Positions 842 to 2,597 of a stretch of 64,000 nucleotides of DNA are shown here, one piece after another (within the stretch, counting starts at the first letter, position 1; the number at the start of each line of letters is the position of its first letter). This stretch comes from an uncultured Pirellulaceae bacterium (GTDB lineage: Bacteria; Planctomycetota; Planctomycetia; Pirellulales; Pirellulaceae): positions 1 to 64,000 of the forward strand of contig CALHPU010000020.1 of assembly GCA_938036435.1 (NCBI GenBank), written 5' to 3'. Made by a program: the position numbers and the translations under genes. The notes below the pieces were generated by a model. That model was not told where the DNA came from, did not search any database, and saw only the letters and a program-made list of their open reading frames with translations.

Positions 842-1414
842 CTACATCAATCCTTCTAAATCACCACGTAAACGCTTCAACAATCGGGACCGAGCGGAAT
901 AGATCGTCCAAGGACTGACGCCGGTTTCTTCGGCCGCCTCGTCGACCGTTTTGCCTTGGGACAACACCAGCCGCAGCGCTTGCCAAGTCGACGGAGCAAA
1001 ATCGTCTTTGTTTTGCTCTATCGATTGCGAGACTAAGAGCCGCGCATAGTTGATGTCCCAAGTCGATTCGGCAACCTCGATTGGAGCTAACTGCTCCAGA
1101 ATCGAGTCAGTTGTAAATTTCATGCCGCTGGACTTGAGCCGCTTGATCTCGCGGTAGCGGTTGAGTGTGATCGTGCGTAACCAGCCGCGAAAGCTCTTGG
1201 AGGAGTCATAGGAAAAGTTGGGCAGCTTCTGAAATACGCGTGTGATCACATCCTGAACGATGTCTGAAGCGTCGGCAGTGTTCAACCCTGTCTTCCGCGC
1301 CCAATAGAACATCAATGGAGTGTACAGTCTCACGAACTCTTCCCAAGCCGATTGATCAAGTCGCCCATCGACTTGCTGCAAGCGAAACAACAGACTTTCA
1401 GAGGTGGTGTTCAT
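842..1414 (-). CDS. ECF-type RNA polymerase sigma factor (sigma-70 family)
   Basis: 190 aa. Region 2-like ...LYTPLMFYWARKTGLNTADASDIVQDVITRVFQKLPNF...FRGWLRTITLNRY and region 4-like HTH ...GKTVDEAAEETGVSPWTIYSARSRLLKRLR. Confidence 0.9.
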   Translation of the reverse strand: MNTTSESLLFRLQQVDGRLDQSAWEEFVRLYTPLMFYWARKTGLNTADASDIVQDVITRVFQKLPNFSYDSSKSFRGWLRTITLNRYREIKRLKSSGMKFTTDSILEQLAPIEVAESTWDINYARLLVSQSIEQNKDDFAPSTWQALRLVLSQGKTVDEAAEETGVSPWTIYSARSRLLKRLRGDLEGLM

Positions 1415-1437: not shown

Positions 1438-1615
1438 AGCCGCTGAATACGCAGAATACCGCAGAAGGCGTGAGCGTCTGATTTGCTCAGATTGAAATTG
1501 CTTCGCTGCGACAAACCATAACCCGTTTTCATGTAGAACTCAAAGCAATTATTCTGGACCGAGGAGCTTTCACATTCATAAAAACCTTCTGCGTCATTCC
1601 GCGTGTTCAGCGGCT
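1438..1615 (-). repeat. Degenerate GxxExxY-derived unit 1 with terminal inverted repeats
   Basis: Left AGCCGCTGAATACGCAGAATACCGCAGAAGG (1438-1468). Right end (1585-1615) reverse-complements to AGCCGCTGAACACGCGGAATGACGCAGAAGG. The minus strand encodes MIEPLNTRNDAEGFYECESSSVQNNCFEFYMKTGYG, similar to the N-terminus of the intact gene at 1846-2253. Confidence 0.75.
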
Positions 1616-1643
1616 CAATCATAGTATCTCGCGGGAGTGATTG

Positions 1644-1820
1644 AGCCGCTGAAAACGCTGAAAATCGTAGAAGCTAAATTCGGCAGATTTTCTCAGATTG
1701 AAATTGCTTCACTTCGAGAAACCTTAGCCCATCTCATGTAAAGCTCAAAACAAGCATCTTGAATCAACGCGCTTTCACATCAATAAAAAAATTCTGCGTC
1801 ATTCCGCGTGTTCTGCGGCT
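1644..1820 (-). repeat. Degenerate GxxExxY-derived unit 2 with terminal inverted repeats
   Basis: Left AGCCGCTGAAAACGCTGAAAATCGTAGAAG. Right end reverse-complements to AGCCGCAGAACACGCGGAATGACGCAGAA. The minus strand reads MMEPQNTRNDAEFFY*CESALIQDACFELYM. Same length (177 vs 178 bp) and orientation as unit 1. Confidence 0.75.
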
Positions 1821-1845
1821 CCATCATGGAATCTCACATGTGTGA

Positions 1846-2253
1846 TTAGATTGACCTAGCCAACCTTTGGATTTGGATTTTGGGATAGTGACCAAAATTG
1901 ACTAACAGTCCCAACTTCAGTCCGGTGGCTTTGAGATAATTAAGGACTTGAGCCTTGTGTTCAGGTGCGAGTTGTCGCGTCCCTTTTATTTCGATGATGA
2001 TTTTTTCAAAGCAGATGAAATCAGGCGTATAGGTTTGCGACAGCCGTTCCCCCTTATAATTTAGGGAGAGTTTCTTCTGAGGTATAAACGGGATATTCTG
2101 CCGCGAAAATTCCTTCGCTAAGCATTCCTGATAAACGGCTTCAAGAAACCCAGGGCCCATTTCCTTGTAAACTTCAAAGCAAGCCCCGCGAATCAGGTAG
2201 CTCTCACGTTCATACAGAAATTCTGCGTTCTTCTGCGTTTTCTGCGGCTCCAT
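1846..2253 (-). CDS. GxxExxY family protein (PD-(D/E)XK nuclease-like)
   Basis: MEPQKTQKNAEFLYERESYLIRGACFEVYKEMGPGFLEAVYQECLAKEFS...YTPDFICFEKIIIEIKG...LNYLKATGLKLGLLVNFG. Contains the GFLEAVY (GxxExxY) motif and a D...EIK nuclease-like motif. Internal ATG at 2253 preferred over the upstream start at 2418. Confidence 0.85.
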   Translation of the reverse strand: MEPQKTQKNAEFLYERESYLIRGACFEVYKEMGPGFLEAVYQECLAKEFSRQNIPFIPQKKLSLNYKGERLSQTYTPDFICFEKIIIEIKGTRQLAPEHKAQVLNYLKATGLKLGLLVNFGHYPKIQIQRLARSI

Positions 2254-2597
2254 TAAACTGCCTCCCGTTGGTTGTTCTGCCGCTGAAGTCGCGGAAAAAC
2301 GCTGAATCTGGAAAACATTATAAATGCTCAGGTTCGCGTGGCACCTTTTACAACCAAAGTCTATCAAGGTACTCACGTGACGAACCTCTCCCGAGTATAA
2401 CGTTTCCGAGAACTCCAATGCATTTGAATTTTAGGTGATTCCACGTTGTCGTTACTTGCCCACTTGTGCCGTTTCCAAATGAGGCAGAATCCATAGAATA
2501 GGCGATTCCTCTCAGCGGTTGGGGATCCTGAACCTTCCGCCAACAGAGTTAGTCCCAGCAATAATACGATTCCGAAACATCGGCCAAGCCAATTTCA

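Follow-up and report, generated by a model that had tools for sequence, protein, structure and literature searches.

The divergent gap between a sigma factor-like ORF and the lysyl-tRNA synthetase gene lysS of an uncultured Pirellulaceae bacterium is filled by an array in which one intact GxxExxY gene is accompanied by two shorter derivatives of it, which raises the question whether GxxExxY genes are, or have ridden on, small elements bounded by terminal inverted repeats (TIRs). We analysed this array in the stretch of 64,000 nucleotides that contains it (the window), elsewhere in the same genome and in other genomes, and we consider, with a probability of about one half, that the GxxExxY gene and two inverted repeats built from an iterated motif (the arms) constitute one genetic unit, a very small chromosomal selfish element.

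Results

Organisation of the array

The original prediction had placed an intact gene for a 135-aa GxxExxY protein on the reverse strand, followed by two units of 178 and 177 bp in the same orientation. The coordinates of the gene were exact, its product matched PF13366 (E=1e-41; 142.2 bits, cut-off 22 bits) and TIGR04256 (E=4e-42; 143.4 bits, cut-off 35 bits), and both units were found where they had been proposed. The features of the region are the following:

842..1414, minus strand: ECF-type RNA polymerase sigma factor-like ORF, flanking (our own reading of the sequence)
1438..1615, minus strand: unit 1, 178-bp deletion derivative inside inverted arms
1616..1643, no strand: spacer between unit 1 and unit 2
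1644..1820, minus strand: unit 2, 177-bp deletion derivative, N-terminal fragment and shared tail inside inverted arms
1821..1845, no strand: spacer between unit 2 and the gene, related to spacer 1616..1643 (by eye)
1846..2253, minus strand: intact GxxExxY gene, 135 aa (profile matches; alignment of 31 relatives)
2221..2253, minus strand: 5' arm of the GxxExxY gene, covering the start codon and codons 1-11, ATGGAGCCGCAGAAAACGCAGAAGAACGCAGAA
2279..2306, plus strand: opposed arm, GCCGCTGAAGTCGCGGAAAAACGCTGAA
2598..4175, plus strand: lysyl-tRNA synthetase gene lysS, flanking (our own reading of the sequence)

Read in the orientation of the gene, the array begins with the opposed arm and a spacer; the 5' arm, which includes the start codon, and the gene come next, and then unit 2 and unit 1, each preceded by a spacer. 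The 5' arm itself codes for the N-terminus of the protein. The inverted repeats of about 30 bp were borne out, since unit 1 has arms with 85% complementarity over 34 nt and none of 2000 shuffles reached the arm score of unit 1, of unit 2 or of either of two dispersed relatives. The predicted RNA fold of unit 1 had -71 kcal/mol (z -6.2). Units 1 and 2 matched each other at the DNA level (E=5e-36) and share a tail of about 50 nt before the distal arm, which is alignable in the relatives on contigs C42 and C41 described below. The N-terminal coding segment said to be kept in both was recognised in unit 2, against residues 1-31 of the intact protein (58%, E=1e-4), and weakly in unit 1 (E=0.05). 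The likeness of the spacers behind the units also held on inspection by eye, and spacer 1616..1643 with its adjoining arms forms a second, inside-out palindrome.

The TIR-like end noticed upstream of the gene, near 2280, is real and corresponds to the opposed arm, which is probably the terminus of an upstream unit since lost. As to the layout of the array, the two arm-bounded units stood, but a 3' arm is missing from the intact gene, whose nearest inverted partner lies inside unit 2; the locus is therefore a tandem array that has since lost pieces. Terminal inverted repeats around an internally deleted parent gene, as in MITEs, were present in the window units. The array had no match in Rfam, lies between protein genes and not in 23S rRNA, and does not encode an S23p protein. 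The upstream neighbours of lysS in both congeners differ from those in the window.

Relatives of the units in the same genome

The arms recur elsewhere in this genome, which the original prediction had proposed as a check. A DNA search found a unit on contig C42, which shares the arms and retains more of GxxExxY, interrupted by several stop codons; it also found another on C41 whose end overlaps C155, and a looser copy of the arm end on C125. The window units thus have the dispersed copies that are expected of MITEs. The C41 unit is the most degenerate, and the N-terminal segment, the tail and both arms are common to the units. A strict pattern of the window arms gave 10 matches in this genome (the C41/C155 overlap being counted twice) and none in nine related genomes, and its reversed control gave none in this genome. 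Full GxxExxY genes on C162 and C40 had arms of other classes (AACCACAGAGAACACAGAGG... and AAACACAGAGGCACGG...), indicating that the arm class follows the gene and not the genome.

Arms of GxxExxY genes in other genomes

To detect flanking inverted repeats, the 250 bp before each gene were locally aligned with the reverse complement of the 250 bp behind it. At a score of at least 18, such repeats were present at 75% of 158 GxxExxY genes drawn from at least a dozen phyla, a proportion that belongs to the best-scoring genes and may not hold for divergent members. The corresponding figures were about 3% for equally spaced shifted windows and 3.1% for 163 neighbouring genes. Such arms at the ends of other GxxExxY genes, which the original prediction had suggested aligning, were thus found both in related genomes and in many phyla (among the groups with such loci are Armatimonadota, Hydrogenedentota, Gammaproteobacteria, Verrucomicrobiota, Cloacimonadota, Chloroflexota, Bacteroidota, Nitrospinota, Neomarinimicrobiota, Acidobacteriota, Cyanobacteria, Omnitrophota and Alphaproteobacteria).

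As a rule an arm repeats the motif C[AG][CT]N[AG]A[AGT] three times at intervals of about 9 bp (for example AACCACGAAGGACACGAAGAGCACGAAG and ACCGCAGAGGACGCAGAGGTCGCAGAG), the motif being alike within one element and variable between elements. GxxExxY elements had 5.7 motif matches each, against 1.1 in shuffles and 0.95 in the arms of the four-helix-bundle genes considered below. Motif and protein have diverged together, as the distance between proteins tracks that between motifs (Mantel r=0.40, reached in 0 of 2000 permutations). A strict arm pattern had 881 matches in 195 genomes, 778 of them within GxxExxY genomes, and its reversed control had none in the same 195; it occurred in 59 of the 93 GxxExxY genomes and 8 of the 102 others (p=5e-17). 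Genome G151 had many stand-alone CACGGAG hairpins without a GxxExxY gene, and its single GxxExxY gene has CGCCAAG arms. Near-identical, recent full-length copies of GxxExxY units within one genome were rare.

Two further repeat families were observed. In G178 (L320-L333), a hairpin with GxxExxY-type arms was dispersed in at least 14 copies, most of them 90-100% identical; the left end is fixed, the right ends are truncated to various extents, and the copies are nested in AAATCCC-type repeats. In G037 (L070-L076) C-terminal GxxExxY fragments recur beside a shared palindrome inside larger repeats. Both were set aside as evidence on boundaries, because they are composites with other sequence.

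Variation at orthologous sites

Searches with flanking sequences in related genomes gave three informative sites (the element L201 of G072 and the group II intron-like neighbour of L213 were not usable for synteny), and among them the empty sites that had been proposed as a check were found for other GxxExxY units. After pyrE, a full-length unit was present in G232 and G303, the gene being frameshifted in the latter. In G269, about 95% identical there, the same unit lacks some 340 bp between two copies of GCGAAAGATT, a derivative that arose by deletion in situ; the proposed internal deletion with retention of the ends was in this way seen directly. Hairpins of other arm classes occupy the site in G207, G155 and G292, and in G251 and G300 the next gene follows pyrE with neither unit nor hairpin in between. 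The cas4-cas1 gap (L212, L276, L280-L283) held the unit in G207 and G226, a deleted form in G155, and in G251, G300 and G184 a different palindrome, like the arms of four-helix-bundle genes. Between rfbA and rfbC the unit was full-length in G232, the flank spacing in G269 and G303 fitted a full unit, and it was absent from G300 and G292. Insertion was not always distinguishable from loss at these polymorphic sites. No target-site duplication was resolved at the three sites or for units bounded by GxxExxY arms alone, those of the window type included.

Copy number varied as well, since a downstream array of hairpin repeats of about 134 bp had about 3 copies in one and about 7 in the other of the sister genomes G072 and G103. 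Downstream hairpin arrays with a period of about 126-134 bp and a copy number varying between sister genomes were noted at L199, L202, L200 and L204. At L213, the GxxExxY unit adjoins a reverse transcriptase-like (group II intron-like) sequence that has many copies in G207.

The GxxExxY protein

The product had been described as PD-(D/E)XK-like, and it carries the expected catalytic residues in addition to passing the profile cut-offs. The core E38, D78, E88-x-K90 and Q102-xxx-Y106 was invariant in the alignment of 31 relatives, and the signature G35xxE38xxY41 is present. The structure model was confident (pLDDT 93.9); its nearest solved folds were SSO0001 (PDB 4ic1), which we take to be Cas4, and lambda-type exonucleases (TM about 0.5), splicing-endonuclease folds were among the weak structural matches, and the PDB held no match at the sequence level. 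GxxExxY shares with SSO0001 and lambda exonuclease the predicted fold and the active-site order E, D, ExK, QxxxY, but it is shorter and only about 12-21% identical to them. The model suggests that GxxExxY is a minimal PD-(D/E)XK nuclease of the Cas4/lambda-exonuclease type.

With dN/dS values of 0.05-0.3 in nine orthologous pairs, the protein evolves under purifying selection. TIGR04256 was found in 86 of 119 genomes of the family, in 93 of 195 genomes of the phylum and also in many phyla besides, with up to 22 GxxExxY matches per planctomycete genome sampled. It was found in none of 50,697 phage records, in one IMG/VR record and in 7 of 72,556 plasmids, and this near absence from phages, viral contigs and plasmids indicates that GxxExxY is chromosomal. 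No PADLOC defence model matched it. Literature searches with the exact repeat strings and with TIGR04256 returned no papers, those with PF13366 and GxxExxY returned passing mentions alone, and no assigned role appeared in the literature found.

Elements with IS66-like ends

GxxExxY sequence also belongs to an element family (L239-L268) with 29 match places in G014 and 33 in G078, where about 25-30 dispersed copies contain a GxxExxY unit inside the ends GTAACCGTTCACGG...GAACGGTTAC. The family has sharp outer ends (GTAACCGTTCA) and many internal deletions, and at two orthologous sites (L244/L260 and L245/L259) one genome had a long copy and the other a short one. Duplications of 8 bp, which are typical of IS66, were conserved in at least 7 of the 8 bp at 10 of 14 copies. 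The ends of IS66 are GTAACCGTCC / GTAAGCG, also given as GTAACCGTCCGGGCA and GTAAGCG (PMC12888890). Because the outer ends are IS66-like, the GxxExxY unit in G014 and G078 is probably the cargo of an IS66-type non-autonomous element, and the family was rejected as proof of transposition by GxxExxY. GTAA tips and 8-bp duplications were found only in these carriers; the arms in the window begin with AGCCGC, and its units have neither GTAA ends nor 8-bp duplications.

A second protein within iterated arms

TIGR02436 four-helix-bundle genes (L289-L317) had flanking arms at 20 of 27 loci outside rRNA, made of 7-nt iterations of other motifs (GTTAGTG, GGTCAGG and TGTTAGC types), and TIGR02436 co-occurred with GxxExxY (39/11/8/40 genomes, p=7e-10). 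The intervening sequence (IVS) of Coxiella, of the S23p/four-helix-bundle family, is described as a selfish element; it is 428 nt long, has inverted repeats and carries tandem heptamers ahead of the start codon. It is excised by RNase III and has a 176-bp deletion in one strain (PMC4990558). GxxExxY units resemble such 23S rRNA IVS in the small ORF within inverted repeats, the iterated motifs by the start codon and the internal deletions, but they differ in protein fold, in motif and in its iteration (9 nt instead of 7 nt), and the ones seen here lie outside rRNA, between protein genes. This points to a single architecture shared by two unrelated proteins.

Discussion

The best analogies for the GxxExxY unit are the 23S rRNA IVS and the REPIN/RAYT system. 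RAYT genes are under purifying selection, as is the GxxExxY gene. Further points in common are a chromosomal gene between its own palindromes with inverted hairpin doublets nearby, many gene-less hairpins and ordered tandem clusters (PMC3116915). On the other hand, GxxExxY is a PD-(D/E)XK and not an HUH/Y1 transposase, its arms have three iterations of a motif of about 9 bp, and several paralogues and arm classes share one genome with generally lower copy numbers; the unit works like REPIN/RAYT and is not a member of it. MITEs are similar as short internal deletion derivatives bounded by inverted repeats, but no transposase is known for the GxxExxY arms and at least one derivative was made in situ.

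The proposal that GxxExxY genes belong to a small TIR element is supported by these results, and GxxExxY itself may provide the mobility. We infer that the arms are bound or cut by the protein, which would drive the spread of the unit in cis and in trans. The nuclease would most likely recognise the iterated motif in DNA, or as a hairpin in single-stranded DNA or RNA, and would assist in copying or inserting the unit, mostly between genes. Deletion of the interior between short direct repeats would leave hairpin units that have lost the gene but retain the arms, and local duplication would give tandem arrays, such as the one intact gene and two derivatives of the window. The derivatives may use the nuclease in trans, as REPINs are thought to use RAYTs (PMC3116915).

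This explanation draws on the arm frequency and enrichment, the correlation of motif with protein, the polymorphic sites, the hairpin arrays, the dN/dS values, the catalytic residues and the fold. Counted against it are the absence of a resolved target-site duplication at GxxExxY-only units, the rarity of recent near-identical full-length copies, the mismatch of arm classes in G151 together with the eight GxxExxY-negative genomes with arm repeats, and the fact that co-divergence is also expected under simple joint inheritance. Some copies remain at one site across genera, which, with the purifying selection, would fit a domesticated function too.

Other explanations were weighed against the same data. 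The arms could belong to non-autonomous elements that unrelated transposases (IS66 and others) mobilise in trans, with GxxExxY as a repeatedly captured passenger. The dispersed copies of G014 and G078, with their IS66-like ends and 8-bp duplications, agree with this, and together with the discordant hairpins and gene of G151 they keep it alive; but the GxxExxY arms are a separate inner feature, family-specific and of constant grammar across phyla, their motif tracks the protein, and the units studied in other groups showed no IS66-like ends, so that we regard such capture as unlikely. The element could instead act at the RNA level, the arms forming a stem in the transcript that is processed by RNase III as in 23S rRNA IVS, with a nuclease acting on RNA and rare passive spread. 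The strong RNA hairpin, the Coxiella parallel of inverted repeats and RNase III excision (PMC4990558), the weak matches to splicing endonucleases and the insertion within operons such as cas4-cas1 would all suit this, yet the best structural matches are DNA nucleases, hairpins also occur in divergent gaps, that of the window included, and iteration of a motif in both arms exceeds what a stem needs, because any sequence could pair. An action on RNA therefore seems rather improbable to us.

A resident functional gene, for instance a defence or repair nuclease, whose flanks gather palindromes, would account for the low dN/dS and the long retention at one site, and the window could then be the outcome of ordinary tandem duplications and decay, in line with the local tandem units and the in situ origin of the G269 derivative. 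It is opposed by the empty orthologous sites, the deleted units and the relatives scattered through the window's own genome, by the lack of a PADLOC match and by the near absence from phages and plasmids, which make it very improbable. A bolder reading than the selfish unit that we favour, and one that we consider less likely than not, makes GxxExxY the founder of a novel class of mobile elements. A single Cas4-like PD-(D/E)XK nuclease would then recognise iterated motifs of about 9 bp and move its own gene as well as gene-less hairpins, with a sister class of four-helix-bundle proteins and 7-bp motifs that includes the rRNA IVS.

GxxExxY occurs in about half to three quarters of the planctomycete genomes sampled, and the unit as proposed would give a testable role to this large family as well as to many scattered repeats of the CACAGAG, CGCAGAG and CACGAAG types, which a common architecture links to the long-unexplained rRNA intervening sequences. 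This nuclease gene, annotated as "hypothetical" and very common in bacteria, seems to represent a family of tiny selfish DNA elements that has gone unnoticed and whose mobility GxxExxY may itself provide.
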